This document shows, in pieces, positions 1-18,925 of a stretch of DNA of 64,000 nucleotides. This DNA comes from Betaproteobacteria bacterium HGW-Betaproteobacteria-22 (GTDB taxonomy: Bacteria > Pseudomonadota > Gammaproteobacteria > Burkholderiales > Methylophilaceae): assembly GCA_002842285.1 (NCBI GenBank), contig PHCJ01000001.1:148369-212368 (forward strand), written 5' to 3'. The position numbers and the translations under genes are program-made. Each line of letters begins with the position of its first letter. Position 1 is the stretch's first letter. The notes under the pieces are model-generated. The model saw only the letters and a list, made by a program, of their open reading frames with translations, was not told the DNA's origin and ran no database searches.

Positions 1-154
1 TAGAGCCAAGCGGTTAACGTAGCCCTGCGTACGGCGCAAGTGATCGCCCGTATCTGAATCACGAATTTCTGCAATATGCGCGAGTGCCCGTATTGCCAGC
101 TGCTGGGTCAGGTCGTTTTCAGCCATGCGTTTTTTAACTTCGGCCTCCAGCACG

Positions 155-565
155 CTATTTTTGTTTTTTTAGCCAATCACGTGCCTGCTTGGCCTGCAAT
201 TGCGCGCTCACGCGCGCCATCACGACCATTGGTTTGATTGGCTTGGTAATATAGTCCACAGCACCTAGCCGCAAACCGTGCTCTTCGTCTTGCTCGTCTG
301 CCAGTGCAGTCACAAAAATCACAGGGATCGTCTGTGTTGCCTGGTTGCGTTTTAATTGACGCAACACCTCATAGCCATCCATCTTGGGCATCATCACATC
401 TAATAGAATCAAGTCTGGCTTGTTTTCGCCATTGGCAATGCGCAAGGCAGCCTCGCCTGAGGTGGCAGCAAGCACTCGATGCTCTGCACTTAATAAGCCG
501 CTCAGCACGCGCAGGTTTTCTGCCAGGTCATCTACAATCAGTATTGTTGTGCTATTTTCTGCCAT
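155..565 (-). pseudogene. Response regulator receiver domain of a REC-HD-GYP (RpfG-like) protein; frame broken at about 155-170, HD-GYP part continues in another frame to the window edge
   Basis: REC motifs (ILIVDD, LILLDVMMPKMDGYEVL, KPIKP). Minus-strand reading of 1-155 in a shifted frame gives SVLEAEVKKRMAENDLTQQLAIRALAHIAEIRDSDTGDHLRRTQGYVNRLAL, typical of the HD-GYP start. Confidence 0.75.
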
Positions 566-741
566 TATCTTTAATTTTTTTCTTTGACTATTTTCAAGCT
601 AGCATATTAAACCCTTTCCAGCAGCATGACTATTTACCCGTAAGCATGGTTATCTTGAAAATGCGCAATAAACTAAAGAATAATATTTAAAATCAATACC
701 TTAAATTTTTATGTAAGACAAACGCCTACAAATTAAAGCGT

Positions 742-1121: not shown

Positions 1122-4100
1122 CTATTTAAAAAATCTACGATAAAAAATGGGCAGCAGCACTAAAGTTAGCGTCGTTGAGCTCACCAGGCCGCCAATCACC
1201 ACAATCGCTAAAGGTCGCTGAATCTCCGACCCAGGCCCTGTCGCAAACAATAACGGAATCAGGCCAAATGCCGCGATATTGGCTGTCATCAGCACTGGCC
1301 GCAGTCGACGCTTAGCACCTTCAATCACGATCGACACAATCTCCATGCCTTGCGCGGCTAACTGGTTAAAATAGCTCACCATCACTACGCCATTGAGCAC
1401 CGCAATCCCTAGCAAGGCAATAAACCCGACTGAAGCAGGTACAGACAGATACTCGCCGGAAAGCCATAACGCGAATACGCCACCTATCATCGCAAATGGA
1501 ATATTGGATAAAATCAGCAAAGCTTGCTTGACCGAACCAAATGTGGCAAACAAGATCAGGAAAATAAGCCCAATCGCCACCGGCACTACCACAGCCAACC
1601 TGGCTGAAGCACGTTGCTGATTCTCAAACTGGCCACCAAATTTCAATGAATAACCTTCGCCCAGTTCAACTTCAGCCTGCACACGCTGACTGGCCTCTTC
1701 GACAAAACTCACCAGATCACGGTCACGCACATTCGAGGTCACCACCACCATTCTGATGCCACGCTCACGGTCTACCTTAACAGGGCCTTCCTCACGCGCT
1801 ATTTTAGCCACAGCAGACAATGGCACATTCGTGCCGTTAGGCAGGGTCAGCATTAGGTTACTGAAATCGGCAGGCGAAGCACGCAAATCAGGGCTGCCAC
1901 GGACAAGTAATGGTGTGCGGCGCTGACCTTCCTGCACTATGCCAAGCTGCTTGCCTTCGAGCTGTGCCAATAGTATCGCTTCAATCTCACTGATACTCAA
2001 ACCCAAACGCCCTGCCGCAACACGGTCAATTTTAATTTGCAGGTACTGTACACCGCTATTTTGCGGGGTATACACATCTTCACTTCCTGCGGTGGACTCC
2101 AGGATTTTTACAATCTGCTGCGCCTTGGCATCTAACACTTTCAAATCCGGACCGAATATCTTAATCGCCAAATCCCCACGCACACCGAGGATCATCTCAT
2201 TCACGCGCATGTCAATCGGCTGTGTAAAGCTATAAGCCAGACCCGGCATTTCACTCATCACCTTACGCAACTCATCAATCAGCGCTTCTTTGGTTGTCAT
2301 GCGCCATTGAGCCATGGGTTTTAACACCAGAAAATTATCTGTCTGGTTAAGCCCCATGGGATCCAGCCCTAAATCATCAGAGCCCACACGTGAATAAATA
2401 CCTTTTACTTCCGGCACGTTGGCTAAAATCGCGCGCTGCACATTTAAATCCGTGAGTACCGATTGCTCCAGATTGATAGAAGGCAACTTTTCCACTCCGA
2501 TGATGATGTCGCCTTCATCCATGGTCGGCATAAACGTTTTACCTATCTGGATATAGGCAATTCCGGTGAACGCCAACATGGCAAACGCCGCCACGACAAT
2601 GGCTTTGGCATGATTCAGGCTCCAATGCAGCACAGGTTCATATACCGTCAATGCTTTACGCACCAGCCAAGGCTCTTCGTGGCTCACTTCTTTAAGCAAA
2701 AACGATGACAGTACAGGAATGACAGTCAGTGATAGCAGCAGGGAAGCTGCCAAAGCAAACATGATGGTAAGCGCTACTGGCGTAAACAGCTTGCCCTCCA
2801 GGCCCTGCAAAGTGAGTAACGGCAAAAATACCGTGATGATAATCAGCACCCCTGCGGTGACCGGTACACTCACCTCGCGCACAGCACGATAAATAATATG
2901 CATACGCGGTAATGTCACTGCCTGATGCTCACTGGCATGCCGATGCAGAGCCAAATGCGAAACGATATTTTCAACCACCACCACTGCCGCATCCACCAGC
3001 ATGCCAATCGCAATAGCCAAACCGCCCAGACTCATCAAGTTGGCGGACATACCAAACTGGCGCATTAACAAAAAAGTAGACAATGCCGACAACGGCAAAA
3101 TAAACGCAATGGTCAAAGCTGCACGGAAATTACCCAGAAACAGCACCAGCAATATCAGCACCAGCACCACAGCCTCAAGCAGCGCCTTGTTGACGGTATT
3201 CACGGCACGCTCTACCAAGTTACCACGGTCATAAAACACATTGATTTTCACGTCTTTCGGTAAAGTCGGTGCAAGCTCAGCCAATTTGGCCTTAACGCCC
3301 TCCACCAGCTTTTGCGCATTCGCACCGCGCAGACCCAGCACCAACCCTTCCACCTGCTCCTGATTGCCATTACTGGTCACCGCGCCGTAGCGCGTCATCG
3401 AGCCGATTTTTACTTGTGCCACATCTGCCACACGTACTGACATCCCCATATCAGTGCGGATAATGGTGTTCTGCACATCCTCTATAGTTTGAAAATTGCC
3501 TTCCGCACGAACCAGCAATGCATCCTCACCATCATTCAGACGCCCTGCGCCGCCATTGCGATTATTCTGCTCCAGCACACTCTGCAATGCGTCAATGGCA
3601 ACCCCTCTTGCATACATACGCGCATTATTAGGAATAATCTCAAAACTGCGCACCAATCCACCCAGCGCATTCACATCAGCCACGCCGGGCACAGTACGTA
3701 ATTGCGGACGGATGACCCAATCCAGCAAACTGCGTCGCTCCTGCAAGCTTAGCGAGTCACTTTCCACTGTGAACATAAACATCTCACCCAAAGGGGTTGT
3801 CATCGGCGCCATGCCACCCTGAACATCCGCAGGCAAGTTACCCCACACCGCATTCAAGCGCTCGGCCACCTGATTTCTGGCCCAATAAATATCCGTGCCA
3901 TCCTCAAAATCAACCGTGATGTCAGTAAGCGCATACTTCGCAACAGACCTAAGCCCTACCTGATGCGGCACGCCTAGCATTTCCACCTCAATCGGTGCCG
4001 TAATGCGCGCCTCAACCTCTTCCGGCGTCATACCGGGCGCTTTCACAATCACCTTGACCTGTGTGGATGACACGTCCGGAAACGCATCGATCGGCAAAGC

Positions 4101-10139: not shown

Positions 10140-11474
10140 CTAGTGCGCTGCGACACACACTTGATTGCGCCCGGACTCCTTGGCTCGGTAAAGCGCTTCA
10201 TCCGCACGATTGAGCAACACATCCATATTATCATCTATTGAAACAACTGAAGCCACACCGATAGAAACCGTAAATTTAACCGGCAGGCCATCTTTTAGCG
10301 GCACTTCCGTTGCTGCAACGGCACTTCTTAGGCGCTCCGCCGCCTCGACAGCTTCTTGTATGTCGGTTTCCGGCAGCAGTACGGCAAACTCCTCGCCACC
10401 TATGCGGCCAATAATATCTACTTCACGCAATGTAGTGCGAAAAGTATCCGCCATTTTTTTGAGCACGGCATCGCCTAATTTGTGCCCATGACTATCATTG
10501 ATGCGTTTAAACCAGTCAATATCAATCATAAAAATCGCCAAAGGTTTTGCGTAGCGCAACGTCCGTGCCAGCTCCTTTTCTGCCAGCTCCATAAAATGGC
10601 CACGATTATTGACCTCTGTCAGATAGTCTACATAGGCTTTTTGCCGCAGCTCTTCTTCGAGCTTCTTTCGCTCAGAAATATCCATATGGATACCAATCAT
10701 TCTGAGCGGCTCATGGTTGACGCGCCAGTCTATGACTTTAGCCACAGCAAATAGCCATATCCAGCCGCCATCTTTGGTTTTACGGCGATATTCTATACTC
10801 ACAGGTTCGTTACCTTGCATGCAACGCTGCAAGGCTGCCATCACTGCGGCAGCATCTTCAGGATGCAAATTGGCCTGCCATTCTTTTAGACTGCTGTGAA
10901 ATTCTTCAGGTGAATACCCCAGCATTTTTGAGTATTCATCGCTCACCTCAACCTCACCTGTTGCTACTTCTAAATCAAACCAGGCCTGTTTAGCGGCGAT
11001 CATGGCAAGCCGAATGCGCTCTTCACTTTTACGCAGGGCGGCTTCCGTTAACTTTATCTCGGTAATATCACGTGCCACTCCAAACAGCCCAACCACATCA
11101 CCGAACTTGTCATAAATGGCATATTTACGATTATCCACCCAACCTGCCTTACCATTACGGTCAAGTACAGGCTGAGTTTCGCGTGTCATCGCCATACCCT
11201 GGTTAAAGAGTTTTTTCTCTAATGCGTAATAAATATCCGCGTATTCCGCCGAGAAAACCTCATAGTCTGTTTTGCCTATTAAGTCCTGCCAGCTTTCCGC
11301 ATCATGCGTAATGTTAACGAGTGTTTGACTCGCACCGGTAAACTCATGCGCCCTGTTTTTAAAGTATATATAATCATCGGTGTTATCAAACATTGCCGTG
11401 AGGTTGGCGAGCGCATTCTGCTCCAGTGCTGATGTACCTGGCGCTGACGATTTACTGAGTGAGATTGAAATATG
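10140..11474 (-). pseudogene. C-terminal part (PAS-PAS-GGDEF) of a diguanylate cyclase gene split by the transposon
   Basis: PAS/PAC motifs and GGEEFAVLLPE. N-terminal portion lies at 18603-18925; the listed ORF start (MCGCYIIP) is encoded inside the transposon end. Confidence 0.9.
11467..11474. repeat. Target site duplication, left copy (gaaatatg)
   Basis: Identical 8-mer at 18603-18610, immediately outside both inverted repeats. Confidence 0.93.
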
Positions 11475-11500
11475 CGGAATTATGTAGCAACCGCACAAAG
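11475..11500 (+). repeat. Left terminal inverted repeat (cggaattatgtagcaaccgcacaaag)
   Basis: Exact reverse complement of 18577-18602. Confidence 0.95.
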
Positions 11501-11559
11501 CAAATTTGCCTCATCCCAGTAAAATAACCCCTGTTAAGAATCGTTTCATGGGGAAATAT

Positions 11560-11988
11560 ATGGGGCACACCTACGCTATATCTGGGTTAGTTGGCAAACG
11601 TTCGGAAATGGCCGGACTGGTCGAACACCACCAGAAGGAAATAGAGCGCCTTCGGCAAGGCTTGTACCAGATTGACGCCGCAATCCGTATTTTCGACCCT
11701 ACTTATCGTATCAGATCTATCAAGGCTACGGAATACAGGCGCTACAGTCGCATTTTTAAGAAGGGAGAATGCTATCGTCTGTGTCTTGAATCGCTACGTT
11801 GTGCAGATGATGTTCTAAGCACTACGCTCATTACCGAGATCATCATGCACAAGAAGAAACTGACGCATGACCAGCAGTCAACTATCACGGATAGTGTGAA
11901 CAACTCACTTCGTTTTGCAGAGCGCAGAGGTATCGTCAAGCGCGTTGGCATGGATGGCATAAGCATCCGCTGGAAGCTCGCGGAGTAG
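11560..11988 (+). CDS. Small hypothetical protein of the transposon, paralogue of the next gene
   Basis: MGHTYAISGLVGKRSEMAGLVEHHQKEIERL aligns with MSQPHVISALTDKRAELLGLIEHHQAHIQRL; listed TTG start at 11506 appears too far upstream. Confidence 0.75.
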   Translation: MGHTYAISGLVGKRSEMAGLVEHHQKEIERLRQGLYQIDAAIRIFDPTYRIRSIKATEYRRYSRIFKKGECYRLCLESLRCADDVLSTTLITEIIMHKKKLTHDQQSTITDSVNNSLRFAERRGIVKRVGMDGISIRWKLAE

Positions 11989-11995
11989 GTTCAAT

Positions 11996-12442
11996 ATGTC
12001 ACAGCCCCACGTTATTTCAGCACTCACGGACAAACGAGCGGAATTACTAGGCTTGATCGAACATCATCAAGCGCATATACAGCGCTTATCAATTAACGTA
12101 GATCAGTTGGATGCAACAATGCTGCTGTTTGATGCTGATTATGACTTCAAGAAAGCTAAATCTAAAGGAATACGTGTTACTAATCCTTGGTTTAAACAAG
12201 GAGAGGTGCCTCGACTGCTGCTAGAGATGCTTGGAAGGTCTGAGCAGCCAATAACGACCACGCAATTGACTGATACACTCATTCAAATGAAGGGCATTGA
12301 AGTGGCTGGATTGAAAGAGCGCGACCGCTTGGGCAAGCTGGTCTTTGGAGCGCTTAAACGCATGGCAGACAGGCATCAAGTTAAATCCACGGGCAAAATT
12401 AAAGGTGCTGGCGGCGGTGTAATGCTATGGACGCTGTTTTAG
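11996..12442 (+). CDS. Small hypothetical protein of the transposon, paralogue of the previous gene
   Basis: 148 aa, tandem to 11560-11988 with clear N-terminal similarity. Confidence 0.8.
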   Translation: MSQPHVISALTDKRAELLGLIEHHQAHIQRLSINVDQLDATMLLFDADYDFKKAKSKGIRVTNPWFKQGEVPRLLLEMLGRSEQPITTTQLTDTLIQMKGIEVAGLKERDRLGKLVFGALKRMADRHQVKSTGKIKGAGGGVMLWTLF

Positions 12443-13473
12443 GCAGCTAATCTTTCAGTTAAACGTCTATTGCCCTGCCAATATCCGCACCAGTCACGGT
12501 GAGTTTTGGTTTTGGCACACTTGCTGGCAATGTCATTAAATATTCTGCCATTCGCCCAGCGGCGGGTATCTTCACGGTAAGCGGCTTCATTGGCGTAGTT
12601 GGCGAGATATTCATTACCAAACTTATGCACTTGGCCGTATTGCATACGACGAAAACGTGCAAAGTAACTTTCTGCAAGATTGTTGGTAGTGCCATCATCG
12701 GCGCGATACTCAATACTGTGATTGACACGGCGCGTGTCATAACGTGCATGTAATGGGTCATAGGCATTAGCTTCGTCGGCACACACAATTGCACCACGAC
12801 TTACAAACCTATCTGCCAGGTTAATAACATCGGCTTGGTTCTCACTTTTAATCACGAAGGTTAACGTCTTTTTACCGCCAACATTTTCATTGATGCGGCC
12901 ATTGGCTAATTCAGTACACTTTTGGCGCATCACAAACACGCAGCGCTTATTGGGCTTTTGATGCTTGGCTAAACGGCGGTCTATACGATCTTCTTTCTTG
13001 TTTTTAGGACGGATATGCCCGTTCACATAAGCACCATCCATGTGAATTTCACCATCTAACTTATCAAGCTCGCGCTGTTCAATCAGTGACTCACGGATTT
13101 TATGTGCTAGTACGAATGCCGTCTTGTATTGCACGCCAAGATCACGGCTTAACTGTAGTGCTGATATGCCTTTTACCGCATTGGCATAAATGGCAATCGC
13201 TGCCAGATAGACGCGTAACGGCAACTTATGAAAGGCAAAGATAGTGCCACTGGTAACAGAGAAAGTGTGACTGCAATCCTTGCAACGCCATTGCTTGCGA
13301 GTGCGCTGATAATAATGCTTGCCAACTGTTCCACATGCAGGACACGCCACTTCATCGCCACCACCCCAACGCAACTCCTTAAACACATGGAAGGCCTCTT
13401 GGTTGGTCATCTCAAATACACGACGTACTGACAATGTACGGGCTTGAGCTGAAAGTAAGAAATGTTGAGACAT
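12439..13473 (-). CDS. IS1595-family (ISXO2-like) transposase
   Basis: N-terminal zinc ribbon (CPACGTVGKHYYQRTRKQWRCKDCSHTFSVTSGTIFAFHKLPL) and DDE region (EIHMDGAYVNGH, CADEANAYD, NNLAESYFARFRRMQYGQVHKF). Confidence 0.93.
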   Translation of the reverse strand: MSQHFLLSAQARTLSVRRVFEMTNQEAFHVFKELRWGGGDEVACPACGTVGKHYYQRTRKQWRCKDCSHTFSVTSGTIFAFHKLPLRVYLAAIAIYANAVKGISALQLSRDLGVQYKTAFVLAHKIRESLIEQRELDKLDGEIHMDGAYVNGHIRPKNKKEDRIDRRLAKHQKPNKRCVFVMRQKCTELANGRINENVGGKKTLTFVIKSENQADVINLADRFVSRGAIVCADEANAYDPLHARYDTRRVNHSIEYRADDGTTNNLAESYFARFRRMQYGQVHKFGNEYLANYANEAAYREDTRRWANGRIFNDIASKCAKTKTHRDWCGYWQGNRRLTERLAA

Positions 13474-13622
13474 AATTAATTGCATTCAATGTTGTTTGTA
13501 TGTCTTTATTATACATAAATATGTATGTTATGCAATAATAAAATATATAAATATGAATAATTAAGATATAAATATATCTTTTATAGATATATTTATTTAC
13601 TTATAGTAGATAGTATGTTCTA

Positions 13623-13913
13623 ATGAAGGCTAAAGTTAATGTAATAAGGTTTTTAATGGAATTGAGAGAGCTAATCCGTGGCGCACGCGCTTTAGTCGAG
13701 GCTAGAGAAAAAAGGTCTATTACCCAGACAGAGATGGCTGGGCGCATAGGTATTGGTTATCGCACCTATTTGGAATACGAAAGAGGTACAAATGCGCCTT
13801 TGGCAATGAAGGCATTGTTGAACTTGCTGACGTTACTTGACGATCAAGAGGTGGTAAGAGTGGTGCGTGAGTGGACGCAACATAAGGAGGTGACAAATGA
13901 ACAGCATCAATAA
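13623..13913 (+). CDS. XRE-family helix-turn-helix regulator
   Basis: ITQTEMAGRIGIGYRTYLEYERGTNAPLAMKALLNLLTLL. Confidence 0.8.
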   Translation: MKAKVNVIRFLMELRELIRGARALVEAREKRSITQTEMAGRIGIGYRTYLEYERGTNAPLAMKALLNLLTLLDDQEVVRVVREWTQHKEVTNEQHQ

Positions 13914-14844
13914 AATGGAAGTGGTTGGGAAAGCTAGCGGCTTATCAGCCTCTAACCCAATACCAAAATACCATCGCCAACAGTATTTGTTAGCCCTGCT
14001 GGAGCTTGCAGGCGGCGTATTGAGTAAAATGGATTTACAAAAACTGTTGTTTCTTGCCGAACAAGGAACAAAAAACGCACACTACGACTTTATCCCTTAT
14101 CACTATGGGTGTTATTCGTTTCAAGCACAGTCTGATATTGAGTTAATGGAATCACGTGGCTGGCTAACGATTGATGGTAATCACCTTAACTTAAATGGCA
14201 GTATTGTCCGCCATCTGGCACAGTCAGTTATACAGCACATTAAATACATACTCGCCAAATACAATGCGTATCGTGGCAATGAGTTGGTGCGCTATATTTA
14301 CGAGAAGTACCCTTACTTTGCGATTAACAGCAAAATCGCAAAGACCATATTAAGCCAAGAGGCCTATCAATCGGTACAGCAAAGTGCTGAGAGCCTTGAC
14401 CAAGAGCAAAGTGTGTTATTTACCATAGGCTATGAAGGTCTGACTCTAGAACAATATATTAACCAATTGATAAAAAACGATGTAAAGCTATTATGCGATG
14501 TGCGAATTAACCCGCTAAGCAGAAAATTTGGCTTTTCCAAAAGCACATTAAGCCATGTTTTACCGCAAATAGGCATCGGTTATATGCATGTTCCAGAGCT
14601 GGGAATTGAATCTGAGAAACGCGCTCATCTTGAAGAGAAGCAAGATTATACGAGGCTATTTAAGGCGTATCGCTTAACCCTTCCGCAAAAGACAACAGGC
14701 ATTGATAAAGTTAGGCACCTATTAGAGCAACATCAACGTATAGCACTTACTTGTTTTGAAAAAGAGCATGATGAGTGCCATCGCCACTGTGTGAGCGACC
14801 ATCTTATGCAAACCGACAATGCCATTAAAGTGGTTCACCTATGA
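13897..14844 (+). CDS. DUF488-domain protein with N-terminal winged-helix/SocA-like region
   Basis: C-terminus FTIGYEGLTLEQYINQLI...LCDVRINPLSRKFGFSKSTL...CFEKEHDECHRHCVSDHL is DUF488-like; overlaps flanking genes. Confidence 0.8.
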   Translation: MNSINKMEVVGKASGLSASNPIPKYHRQQYLLALLELAGGVLSKMDLQKLLFLAEQGTKNAHYDFIPYHYGCYSFQAQSDIELMESRGWLTIDGNHLNLNGSIVRHLAQSVIQHIKYILAKYNAYRGNELVRYIYEKYPYFAINSKIAKTILSQEAYQSVQQSAESLDQEQSVLFTIGYEGLTLEQYINQLIKNDVKLLCDVRINPLSRKFGFSKSTLSHVLPQIGIGYMHVPELGIESEKRAHLEEKQDYTRLFKAYRLTLPQKTTGIDKVRHLLEQHQRIALTCFEKEHDECHRHCVSDHLMQTDNAIKVVHL

Positions 14845-15668
14845 GCGAAACGCGCAAAGTTTTTATTACTGTAAAAACCTACCCAACATTATCAAAAAGT
14901 TATGATGAGTTGGTATGTACCGCAGGCATTTTAGATGATGGCAGTTGGATTCGGGTATATCCATTACCATTTAGAAAACTGGATTACGAAAACCGTTATC
15001 AAAAATATCAATGGATGGAACTGCCAATTGAGCGCAATTTAGCTGATCCAAGGCCAGAAAGTTTCAAAGTCACCGATTTGTCAAAAGTTAAACTGATTGG
15101 CACACCCATCGGCACAGAGCAAGGGTGGTTGGCTAGAAAGGAAATTATCTTTGCAAAAAACAAGGCTTATACAAACTTGGAAGCGCTTATCAAATTGGCT
15201 AACGATAATCATCTATCACTTGCCACATTCAAACCGACACGATTATTAGATTTTGTGGTGGAAGAAACTGAACGCAAATGGGGTGCCGAGCATTTGGAAA
15301 CCTTGAAACAAAAAGCCAATCAATTATCACTGTTTCAAACAGAAGATGAAGTGAGAAAAGAGTTTGCTGTAGTGGATAAGCTGCCCTATAAGTTCTCGTA
15401 TCGGTTTTGTGACGACACAGGCAAAGAAAGTACGCTGATGATTGAAGATTGGGAAATTGGCGCGTTATATTGGAATTGTCTTCAAAGAAGCGGTAGTGAA
15501 GAAGCAGCAATCGAACAAGTGAAGCAAAAATACTGGGATACATTTCTAAAAAATGATTTGCACTTGTTTTTAGGTACAACAAGACAGTTTCACGCCTGGG
15601 CTAAAAATCCTTTTGTGATTATTGGTGTATTTTATCCACCGCTAGATCAACAACAAGCACTGTTTTAA
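14841..15668 (+). CDS. Hypothetical protein translationally coupled to DUF488 gene
   Basis: 275 aa ORF with 4-bp ATGA overlap with the DUF488 gene; no family recognised. Confidence 0.75.
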   Translation: MSETRKVFITVKTYPTLSKSYDELVCTAGILDDGSWIRVYPLPFRKLDYENRYQKYQWMELPIERNLADPRPESFKVTDLSKVKLIGTPIGTEQGWLARKEIIFAKNKAYTNLEALIKLANDNHLSLATFKPTRLLDFVVEETERKWGAEHLETLKQKANQLSLFQTEDEVRKEFAVVDKLPYKFSYRFCDDTGKESTLMIEDWEIGALYWNCLQRSGSEEAAIEQVKQKYWDTFLKNDLHLFLGTTRQFHAWAKNPFVIIGVFYPPLDQQQALF

Positions 15669-15731
15669 AGTTATGTAATTCGACCTGATCCCGCCAAAAG
15701 TATGTATAAATAATGATAAAGTAGTTGACAA

Positions 15732-16885
15732 ATGAAAAATGACGCCATAATAACTGCAAGCAAGCAAGCAAGCAAGCAAGCGAATCTACATCTAGCAGTC
15801 GTGCTCTATCCAATGCAAAGAAAGCTAAGAAGGATGAGTTCTATACCCAACTTGGCGACGTCAGCAACGAACTGAAATACTACAAGTCGCAACTGCGAGA
15901 CAAAACAATTTTATGCAACTGCGATGACCCATTTGAGAGCAATTTTTTCAAGTATTTTGCGCTCAACTTCAATACACTTGGCATCAAGAAGCTCATCGCT
16001 ACAAGCTACAAAAAATCACCTATCGTTGGTGGCCAATTACCGCTCATTACCATTGAAGGCTTAAAACCAGAAGGCAAAGAGCCATACGCGATAGAAATCA
16101 ACGAAGTACCTGATCAAAACGTTGACGGTGCGACCGACCTTGCCGACGTAGAATACCTCCTCAAGCACAACGCCAATACAGCTAGTTCACTCAAGGCCGA
16201 CAACACTTACAATGCTGGTGACTTCCGAAGTAGTGAGTGTGTGGCGTTATTAAAACAGGCTGACATCGTTATCACCAATCCGCCTTTCTCTCTGTTTCGT
16301 GAATATGTGGCGCAACTCGTCACGTACAATAAACAGTTCATCATAATCGGGAATAAAAACGCGATTACTTACAAAGAGATTTTTAAGTTAATTAAGGAAA
16401 ACAGAGCATGGGTTGGCGCCACCCCAATGGGCGTTGATATGTTATTTGACGTTCCAGAGGAATACGCCAAAATCATGATTGAAAATGGAAAAGAAGGCAG
16501 TAACTACAAAATTGTTAATGGGATTGTCAAAGGTCGATCGTCGTCAATTTGGTTCACAAATATGGACAACCCTAAGCGTCACGAAGAAATCACCCTCTAC
16601 AGAAAATACACATCAGGCGAATATCCGACCTATGATAATTACGATGCAATCGAGGTTGGCAGGGTAGCAGAAATTCCAGTTGATTATGATGGCGCAATGG
16701 GTGTGCCAATAACTTTTTTAGACAAATATAACCCTGAACAGTTTGAAATTATTGGAATGTCTGCATCTGCTGGTTACGATGTAGAGGTTGTTGGGCTTGA
16801 AAAAAACTCTAAATTCAAAGATGCACGGCCACTTCTTAGCGGAAAAAATACTTACGCAAGAATTTTCATTAAGCGAAAGAAATAA
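15732..16885 (+). CDS. M.EcoRI-like adenine-specific DNA methyltransferase, phase-variable; OFF in this register (ATG 15732 is in frame 0, the methylase in frame 2)
   Basis: Frame-2 reading 15743-16885 is open: AKKAKKDEFYTQLGDVSNELKYYKSQLRDKTILCNCDDPFESNFFKYFALNFNTLGIKKLIATSY...ADIVITNPPFSLFREYV. It strongly resembles the M.EcoRI N-terminus as I recall it, with an NPPF catalytic motif. Confidence 0.85.
15757..15780 (+). repeat. Tetranucleotide simple sequence repeat (CAAG)6
   Basis: caagcaagcaagcaagcaagcaag read directly, near the 5' end of the methyltransferase frame. Confidence 0.97.
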
Positions 16886-16886
16886 T

Positions 16887-17978
16887 ATGATAATCATTCT
16901 GAAAAATATCAAGGTGTCAGAACTCACCAAGGGGTATGAAGATAAAGCTGAAGAAGGTGTGCGTGGCTACGATGGCACACTCAATATCCGACCAGCGTAT
17001 CAGCGCGAGTTCATCTATAAAGAAAAGCAGCGTAACGAGGTTATCAACACTGTCCGCAAGAGCTTCCCTCTCAACACGATGTATTGGGCTGTGGCAGGCG
17101 AAGGTTATGAGCTTATGGATGGCCAACAGCGCACCGTTAGCATTTGCCAATATGTACAAGGTGACTTTGCGGTAGAAATTGATGGATCTCCGATGTTCTT
17201 CAACAATCTTACATCCGAGAAGCAGCAGCAAATTCTGGATTACGAAGTTTCAGTTTATGTTTGTGAAGGTGCGGAAGGAGAAAAGCTTGACTGGTTCAAA
17301 ATCATTAACATTGCTGGTGAGAAATTAACAGACCAGGAGCTGCGTAACGCGATTTATACAGGCCCGTGGCTCGCTGATGCGAAGCGATGGTTTTCGCGCT
17401 CAGGCTGCCCTGCGTATCAAATTGGCGAAAAGTATGTGAATGGTTCACCTATACGTCAGGAGTTGCTAGAAAAGGCTATTGAGTGGATTTCTGGGGGTAA
17501 AATTGAGGACTACATGAGTCGTCATCAGCATGACTCTGACGCTCAAGAACTGTGGCAATACTATCAGGAAGTGATTGCGTGGGTAGAGCGTATATTCCCA
17601 GAGTATCGAAAAATTATGAAGGGTCTTGATTGGGGGAAGTTCTACAACGAGCACAAGGATGATAAGCTGAATGCGTCGAAATTGGAGCAGCGTATCGTGG
17701 AACTCATTGAAGACGACGAGGTAGACAACAAAAAAGGCATTTACGAGTATCTTTTAACCAACAACGAAAAGACCTTGAGCCTACGTATGTTCGACGAAAA
17801 GACAAAAGTAAAAATTTACGAAAAGCAAAAAGGAATTTGCCCGACCTGCAAAAAACACTACGACATAGGTTCAATGGAAGCTGATCATATTATTCCGTGG
17901 AGCAAGGGTGGCAAAACAACATCAGATAATTGCCAAATGCTTTGTAAGATGGACAATAGAACAAAAAGCGGGAAGTAG
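16887..17978 (+). CDS. DUF262 (ParB-like) protein with C-terminal HNH endonuclease domain
   Basis: RPAYQREFIYKEKQRNEVINTV...YELMDGQQRTVSIC (DUF262) and CPTCKKHYDIGSMEADHIIPWSKGGKTTSDNCQMLCKMDNRTK (HNH); starts 1 nt after methylase stop. Confidence 0.9.
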   Translation: MIIILKNIKVSELTKGYEDKAEEGVRGYDGTLNIRPAYQREFIYKEKQRNEVINTVRKSFPLNTMYWAVAGEGYELMDGQQRTVSICQYVQGDFAVEIDGSPMFFNNLTSEKQQQILDYEVSVYVCEGAEGEKLDWFKIINIAGEKLTDQELRNAIYTGPWLADAKRWFSRSGCPAYQIGEKYVNGSPIRQELLEKAIEWISGGKIEDYMSRHQHDSDAQELWQYYQEVIAWVERIFPEYRKIMKGLDWGKFYNEHKDDKLNASKLEQRIVELIEDDEVDNKKGIYEYLLTNNEKTLSLRMFDEKTKVKIYEKQKGICPTCKKHYDIGSMEADHIIPWSKGGKTTSDNCQMLCKMDNRTKSGK

Positions 17979-18487
17979 TGAGTAGCAAGATAATGGAAAT
18001 TAAAAAAGACAGATTGCTATTGTTCTTTGATACTGAGTTCACAGACTTTAAGGATATGGATCTAATCAGCATAGGCATAGTGTCGCAACACTGGCATGAG
18101 TTCTACGCTGAAAATTCAGAATATAACAAAGCCTGGTGTAACGATTTTGTTAAGACCGAAGTCCTAACTAAACTTCAAGGCGGTGAATACACTATGCCTT
18201 ACAATCAGCTCAAAGAAAAGTTACAAATATGGATTTCTGATTTGCTTGAAGAGTATGTATCCGTATTGTTTGTATTTGATTATTCTGGCGACTGGTTTCT
18301 AATGGGCGATTTACTAACTGATTATCCACAAAAAGAGAAAGTCCACGGTCAAAAAGACGAACTGGACGCAGGCATAGAGTTGTATTTTATGCATGATCGA
18401 TCAAATGAGCACCATGCTTTACATGATGCTAAAGCCTTATTTAATGGGTTTAAGGTTAAGTACGCAGGGAAAGAGTTAACGTATTAG
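17978..18487 (+). CDS. DEDD-type 3'-5' exonuclease-like protein (RNase H fold)
   Basis: LLLFFDTEFTDFKDMDLISIGIV ... HHALHDAKALFNGF; GTG start overlaps upstream stop by 1 nt (ATG at 17993 is an alternative). Confidence 0.7.
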   Translation: MSSKIMEIKKDRLLLFFDTEFTDFKDMDLISIGIVSQHWHEFYAENSEYNKAWCNDFVKTEVLTKLQGGEYTMPYNQLKEKLQIWISDLLEEYVSVLFVFDYSGDWFLMGDLLTDYPQKEKVHGQKDELDAGIELYFMHDRSNEHHALHDAKALFNGFKVKYAGKELTY

Positions 18488-18576
18488 TCAGGAGCTAGAC
18501 AATTCAAGCGCAATGCTTAAGGGTGGCTTTCTCAGATGGTAATCATAATCAACTTGCAACCTATTGATTAATTTAA

Positions 18577-18602
18577 CTTTGTGCGGTTGCTACATAATTC
18601 CG
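18577..18602 (-). repeat. Right terminal inverted repeat
   Basis: ctttgtgcggttgctacataattccg, exact reverse complement of 11475-11500. Confidence 0.95.
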
Positions 18603-18610
18603 GAAATATG
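18603..18610. repeat. Target site duplication, right copy (gaaatatg)
   Basis: Identical to 11467-11474. Confidence 0.93.
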
Positions 18611-18925
18611 CGTAGTGAGTTTGCCAAAATCAGAGCTTTTGCGGTAACGTGCGTTTAAAATCATCACTTGACCGTCTTTTTTTATCAATCTCAGGGTCAA
18701 TAGCGGCAAGCCATTAGCGGGTGCGTGCGAGAACAGCATGTCGCGCACATCTAAATCATCAACATGAAAAATATCAGCAAAACTTGGATTGGAGTTGATA
18801 AAATCCTCGGTACTGTAGCCCGTCAGTAGCTCAACATCCCCCGACACCTGCTCACAGCTCAGTGTATCTTGTGCCAATGCAAACTCCAGTTGCACCTGCA
18901 TGGTATTTTGTTCTCGCGCTTGCAT
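18603..18925 (-). pseudogene. N-terminal PAS part of the split diguanylate cyclase gene
   Basis: MQAREQNTMQVQLEFALAQDT...DFGKLTTHIS ends at the transposon; continues in frame with 10140-11474 if the element is removed. Confidence 0.88.

Follow-up and report, generated by a model that had tools for sequence, protein, structure and literature searches.

Does the EcoRI-like methyltransferase frame of this locus, which has no start codon ahead of its domain and lies in the wrong register behind a short tetranucleotide repeat, belong to a dead gene or to one that was sequenced in its silent state? Our analysis of the window, by which we mean the whole stretch of 64,000 nucleotides, leads us to read it, with a probability of roughly 0.8, as a restriction-modification module that is phase-variable and travels as cargo on an IS1595-family transposon. 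This reading is built on the anatomy of the locus and on the recurrence of repeats in its homologues. Switching itself is an inference, because variation in repeat number has not been observed (there were no reads or strains). The features at issue are the following.

15732-15875, plus strand: frame as sequenced, in the OFF register, from ATG 15732 to TGA 15873-15875 (47 aa)
15743-16885, plus strand: frame of an EcoRI-family adenine-specific DNA methyltransferase (PF13651, 445 bits), without a start of its own before 16241
15757-15780, plus strand: (CAAG)6 simple sequence repeat (SSR); 7 copies (or 1, 4, 10) fuse ATG 15732 to the methyltransferase frame
16887-17978, plus strand: DUF262(GmrSD_N)-HNH nuclease (PADLOC REase_II, 454 bits), its ATG one base past the methyltransferase stop

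The arrangement put forward in the earlier note, that is, the tract, the ATG and the early stop that ends its 47-aa product, is reproduced at every coordinate. On recounting the sequence, the tract is (CAAG)6 within a perfect period-4 run that spans 15756-15781. Frame 2 follows a TGA at 15740 and, as had been claimed, offers no ATG, GTG or TTG until GTG 16241, which lies inside the methyltransferase domain. Simulation of the copy number confirms that the two frames join at 7 or 4 copies and adds 1 and 10 to these; the four numbers give full-length products of 377-389 aa (385 aa at 7 copies, beginning MKNDAIITASKQASKQASESTSSSRALSNAKKAKKDEFYTQ), and other numbers give short ones (47 aa at 6 copies, 19 aa at 5). 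With six copies, the sequenced allele is indeed in the OFF register. The tract thus satisfies the criterion for an SSR of this kind, a unit length that is not a multiple of three at the 5' end of a coding frame, and the further one that a computed change in copy number exchanges a full-length for a truncated methyltransferase product. The (CAAG)6 tract is not due to chance, since dinucleotide shuffling of the window leads one to expect only 0.06 occurrences of even three consecutive CAAG units in 64 kb, and the tract is the only site with at least four units in the 2.53-Mb genome. Inspection by eye finds no clear ribosome-binding site before ATG 15732. Promoter-like matches are no more frequent than in shuffles, and a terminator scan likewise does no better than chance.

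Behind the repeat, the domain that had been likened to M.EcoRI is intact. It matches PF13651 (EcoRI_methylase) over its full length (profile positions 2-345 of 345), and the NPPF motif is invariant across the methyltransferase alignment; the two together meet the criterion for membership of the family. No stop interrupts the remainder of the 380-codon frame. Differences at the three codon positions are 52/36/150 against the homologue L149 and 68/59/200 against L009, an excess at third positions in both comparisons, and dN is 0.15 against L149 at a dS near saturation. On this pattern of substitutions, the frame has been under strong purifying selection. The AlphaFold model (pLDDT 68) is too weak for a useful fold search of the PDB, and a PDB sequence search at E 0.001 found no relative of the methyltransferase.

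The methyltransferase is followed at once by the DUF262-HNH nuclease, an adjacency that is observed well beyond this locus. A homologue of the nuclease lies downstream of the methyltransferase in 77 of the 80 loci taken from genomes, and the remaining three end within 160 nt of the methyltransferase. Of 101 pairs measured, 82 have a nuclease start that is at most 13 nt past the methyltransferase stop or overlaps it; the spacing is +1 in the window and in L009, and -4 in L012 and L089. A PDB sequence search with the nuclease returned chiefly HNH-domain matches. The criterion for a Type II restriction-modification pair in the sense of PADLOC, a methyltransferase with an adjacent REase_II-type gene, is met. 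That for an EcoRI restriction-modification system is not met, as the neighbour is a DUF262-HNH protein and no R.EcoRI-type endonuclease lies beside the methyltransferase. By gene content and conservation, the methyltransferase gene opens a conserved restriction-modification pair whose second member is the DUF262-HNH nuclease; the cleavage activity of the latter is inferred. The earlier note covered neither the partner nuclease gene, nor the exact boundaries of the element, nor the repeats in homologues. Its proposal of a mobile on/off epigenetic switch stands as far as mobility is concerned, given the transposon; a stand-alone switch of methylation is not shown, in view of the pairing in 77/80 loci.

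The proposed mechanism is as follows. Slipped-strand mispairing in the (CAAG)n tract behind ATG 15732 would alter the copy number. With 3k+1 copies the ATG would join the methyltransferase frame (ON), and in the other two registers translation would meet an early stop (OFF), so that the sequenced genome, with six copies, would be OFF and one gained unit away from ON. Variation of the copy number within a population, and the activity of the ON protein, are inferred. Given that the nuclease ATG follows the methyltransferase stop by one base, translation of the nuclease is probably coupled to that of the methyltransferase. In that case the module would most likely switch together, and an unprotected cell would not be cut. 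As the methyltransferase is the first gene of the pair, the whole defence module probably switches and not methylation alone, although coupling of the nuclease to the methyltransferase, or its dependence on it, is an inference. Six tetranucleotide copies are few compared with well-studied phase-variable tracts, and the switching rate may therefore be low.

The strongest evidence for switching comes from comparison. Three homologous methyltransferase loci carry tracts of different units in the 5' leader: (CAAGCCG)9 in L009 (70% identity), (AGCCGACA)7 in L012 (62% identity) and (GCGAACC)17 in L089, a homologue of about 42% identity from the window's genus. In each of the three, a start codon lies 3-25 nt before the tract, the methylase frame is startless ahead of it, and the two differ in register by a single unit, whose gain would put L009 and L089 back in frame and whose loss would do so for L012. 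We scanned 116 methyltransferase loci (953,002 bases) for frame-shifting tracts with a unit of at least 2, at least five copies and at least 20 nt. There are six, and 6/6 lie within the methyltransferase gene, three in the short 5' leader (1.7% of the scanned DNA) and three near the 3' end. The methyltransferase region (-150 to +1250) makes up ~17% of the scanned DNA, and by our arithmetic the chance of 6/6 is ~2e-5. A further 58 loci from viral contigs added one tract, (CGGCA)12, just upstream of the methyltransferase. CCATAAT followed by a CAAGC core is common to the leaders of the window, L009 and L012, which look related. The repeats of these three may therefore not represent three independent origins, and the repeat may be ancestral with turnover of its unit; L089 belongs to a distant branch.

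Three further observations are recorded here in their own right. The (CGGCA)12 tract occupies 2378-2437 of L185, directly upstream of an EcoRI-family methyltransferase. A poly-G of 22 at 4461-4482 of L206 lies in the position of the downstream nuclease gene. In L092, a Helicobacter phage (PQ159904.1), an EcoRI-type methyltransferase at 2465-3426 is annotated as two pieces (a split frame) and adjoins an annotated EcoRI endonuclease.

These comparisons bear on three other explanations. The gene may have been inactivated recently, a chance loss of 4 nt having permanently killed a working methyltransferase next to an incidental repeat. A register that is OFF, the single state seen and the mere six units of the tract are all compatible with such decay, but it would not predict that L009, L012 and L089 carry different frame-shifting SSRs at the corresponding leader, nor that 6/6 such tracts in 116 loci fall within the methyltransferase gene, and a stop-free frame under purifying selection speaks against it as well. 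We consider inactivation unlikely. Because different SSR units occupy the same position, because all six tracts lie in the methyltransferase gene and because the frame is under strong purifying selection, comparison speaks for phase variation and against decay of the gene, and the slipped-strand arrangement recognized in the earlier note is to this extent supported.

Selection on the frame could equally be cited for a gene that is expressed as it stands, without any genetic switch, either by programmed +1/-2 frameshifting on the repeat, as repeats can promote frameshifting, or from a non-canonical internal start. The frame has no ATG, GTG or TTG before the one inside the domain, however, and the unit lengths (4, 7, 8) and offsets differ among the window and its homologues, which is not what a conserved frameshift signal would look like; this explanation is very improbable. 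Least credible of all is an error of assembly or consensus, under which the majority allele would really carry 7 copies and leave the gene ON. The genome is a draft of 40 contigs and SSRs are error-prone in some sequencing chemistries, but any usual read is longer than 24 nt, the length of the tract, the three homologues are off-register too, and a mixed tract would itself amount to phase variation. Phase variation of the module thus remains our preferred reading.

The earlier note had also placed the gene on a transposon. The following features delimit it.

10140-11474, minus strand: 3' part of an interrupted PAS-GGDEF gene (5' part, 18611-18925)
11467-11474: left copy of the 8-bp target-site duplication GAAATATG, present as a single copy at the empty site of sister species G137
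11475-11500, plus strand: left terminal inverted repeat CGGAATTATGTAGCAACCGCACAAAG, 26/26 identical to the right one
12439-13485, minus strand: IS1595-family transposase (PF12762 + PF12760; 156 bits), 97% identical in G137 and 91% in G119
18577-18602, minus strand: right terminal inverted repeat, a perfect match over 26 nt to the left one
18603-18610: right copy of the target-site duplication GAAATATG

The element measures 7,128 bp (11475-18602) and meets the criteria of the IS1595 family with its PF12762 transposase, terminal inverted repeats and 8-bp target duplication. Removing it in silico, together with one copy of the duplication, restores a continuous PAS-GGDEF frame of 553 aa. In G137 the same gene is uninterrupted and 84% identical, and the DNA crosses the junction with one copy of GAAATATG, so that the 26-nt repeats, the duplication and the empty site together confirm the location on a transposon. 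G137 carries a 94%-identical element on another contig in different flanking sequence. From this copy and the empty site, we conclude that the element has moved. The G137 copy stops at a contig end equivalent to 15302, before the repeat tract, and a search of that genome did not find its other part. Searches of IMG/VR gave no match to the exact terminal inverted repeat and none to the exact leader plus repeat, hence no second allele is counted. Among the homologues, the L009 pair with its (CAAGCCG)9 tract rides on an IS1595-family transposon of 3,406 bp with target-site duplication TTTTTAAA; around the L012 and L089 homologues no convincing pair of terminal inverted repeats was found. The host had been taken for a probable methylotroph, with which two hexulose-6-phosphate synthase matches above the curated cut-off in the genome are consistent.

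Apart from the transposase and the restriction-modification pair, the element carries the following genes.

11506-12442, plus strand: two small accessory ORFs (11506-11988 and 11996-12442), with counterparts in the related G137 and G119 elements
13623-13913, plus strand: helix-turn-helix regulator (HTH_3)
13897-14844, plus strand: DUF488 protein, PADLOC phage-defence candidate PDC-M19A (351 bits)
14841-15668, plus strand: partner protein, PADLOC phage-defence candidate PDC-M19B (370 bits)
17978-18487, plus strand: DEDD exonuclease-like ORF with a weak RNase AS match (42.6 bits, below the curated cut-off of 200)

Going by these assignments, the cargo is a small mobile defence island.

To judge from the tracts in G119, G148 and G185, the window is not the only place in this bacterial family with SSR contingency loci. 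A related IS1595 element of G119 holds a methyltransferase frame that has the DPPY motif and contains (AGCCAAC)10 in frame. By eye, this frame resembles a Type III Mod; it has no Pfam match. The Type III Mod (PF12564) of G148 continues into (AGCC)34 and lies beside a fragment of an IS1595 transposase.

L137 (G119:C159), 2346-2840: the DPPY-motif frame containing (AGCCAAC)10, truncated close to the contig end
L148 (G148:C18), 1-633, minus strand: Type III Mod (PF12564) with (AGCC)34, the tract at the contig end

In G185, a (CAAG)6 tract (L169, G185:C8, 5526-5549) separates the two Methylase_S halves of a Type I hsdS, probably a phase-variable specificity subunit. The CAAG tracts of G072, G117 and G157 are not clearly within genes. 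The G148 locus also adjoins genes that by eye resemble TniQ/TniB transposition genes. In G052, (CAAG)10 opens a large glycine-rich, autotransporter-like frame (L165, G052:C65, 5886-5925, minus strand), possibly that of a phase-variable surface protein.

What is new is not the mechanism, which is known, but the class of enzyme, its pairing with a DUF262-HNH nuclease and the transposon as vehicle. Reviews describe phase-variable methyltransferases as Type I and III (PMC13076061; PMC7394358). By survey, 17.4% of Type III mod genes contain SSRs, which occur in Type I genes as well (PMC7394358), and a 2026 review finds that ON/OFF switching has 'limited representation' in Type II systems (PMC13076061). 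The window resembles the Type III mod and Type I hsdM/hsdS phasevarions in having an SSR near the start of, or within, the gene of an N6-adenine methyltransferase whose state would depend on the frame; unlike them, it has an EcoRI-type methyltransferase (PF13651), a DUF262-HNH partner and an IS1595-family transposon. With M.EcoRI it shares the full-length family match and not the partner, which is a DUF262-HNH protein here and in the 77/80 sampled loci, whereas the plasmid EcoRI system pairs its methyltransferase with R.EcoRI. The nuclease has the N-terminal DUF262 and C-terminal HNH domains of the GmrSD, BrxU and SspE proteins (DUF262 + DUF1524 or HNH), which target modified DNA or work alongside other modification systems (PMC12707154), but differs from them in matching PADLOC REase_II and in its consistent pairing with an EcoRI-type methyltransferase. 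As in other IS1595-family transposons with passenger genes, the PF12762/PF12760 transposase, inverted repeats and 8-bp duplication are present; the passengers differ, being the two-gene defence candidate PDC-M19AB and a putatively phase-variable restriction-modification pair. We found no report of SSR phase variation in EcoRI-type or Type II systems in the open-access papers searched, which is weak evidence of absence, and no description there of such cargo on IS1595-family transposons, most subscription journals not being covered.

Most known phase-variable methyltransferases belong to Type I and III systems, which have been studied mainly in host-adapted pathogens. Here, an environmental bacterium has a Type II-like pair with apparently switchable repeats on a transposon, and related repeats are found again in the corresponding methyltransferase gene across several phyla. 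If switching is confirmed, a mobile element would turn defence and DNA methylation on and off at random, and it would become testable how a restriction system switches without its nuclease killing the host. Our findings suggest that broken-looking or start-less EcoRI-like methyltransferase genes be re-read as possible switches.

The other end of the gene may hold a second switch. The C-terminal tail after GVPITFLDKYNPEQFEI is strongly variable and modular: its similarity hardly follows that of the core or of the nuclease (Spearman 0.13 and 0.16), whereas core and nuclease go together (0.61). The window shares its tail type with L018, L022 and L084 at about 55-61% core identity, and L149 has a different type despite a core 78% and a nuclease 85% identical. 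Five tracts lie near the 3' end of EcoRI-family methyltransferase genes.

L033, 2812-2833: (GA)11
L122, 2011-2030: (AG)10
L032, 3874-3888: poly-G of 15
L064, 3461-3469: poly-G of 9
L037, 6061-6148: (CAGA)22

Each lies within or just ahead of the variable tail, and at least two frames after it encode different, overlapping tails; the alternative tails end in the family's Y/F-x-R-[IL]-x-[IV]-[KR]-type motif. The tracts look like a means of frame-selected tail swapping, with a possible change of the recognition domain, which we regard as a lead. More tentatively still, EcoRI-type methyltransferases with DUF262-HNH partners might form a widespread phase-variable class of Type II defence with two modes. 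In the first mode, a 5' SSR would turn the system ON or OFF, as in the window, and IS1595-family transposons, which in this genus also carry phase-variable Type III mod-like genes, would spread it. The second would exchange the C-terminal, probably target-recognizing tail of the methyltransferase through an SSR or poly-G before overlapping tails, as in the five loci listed. In this picture, the methyltransferase would dictate the specificity of the nuclease, and switching of this kind would then be safe.

As a separate observation, L080 carries a poly-G of 9 at the corresponding 3' position.
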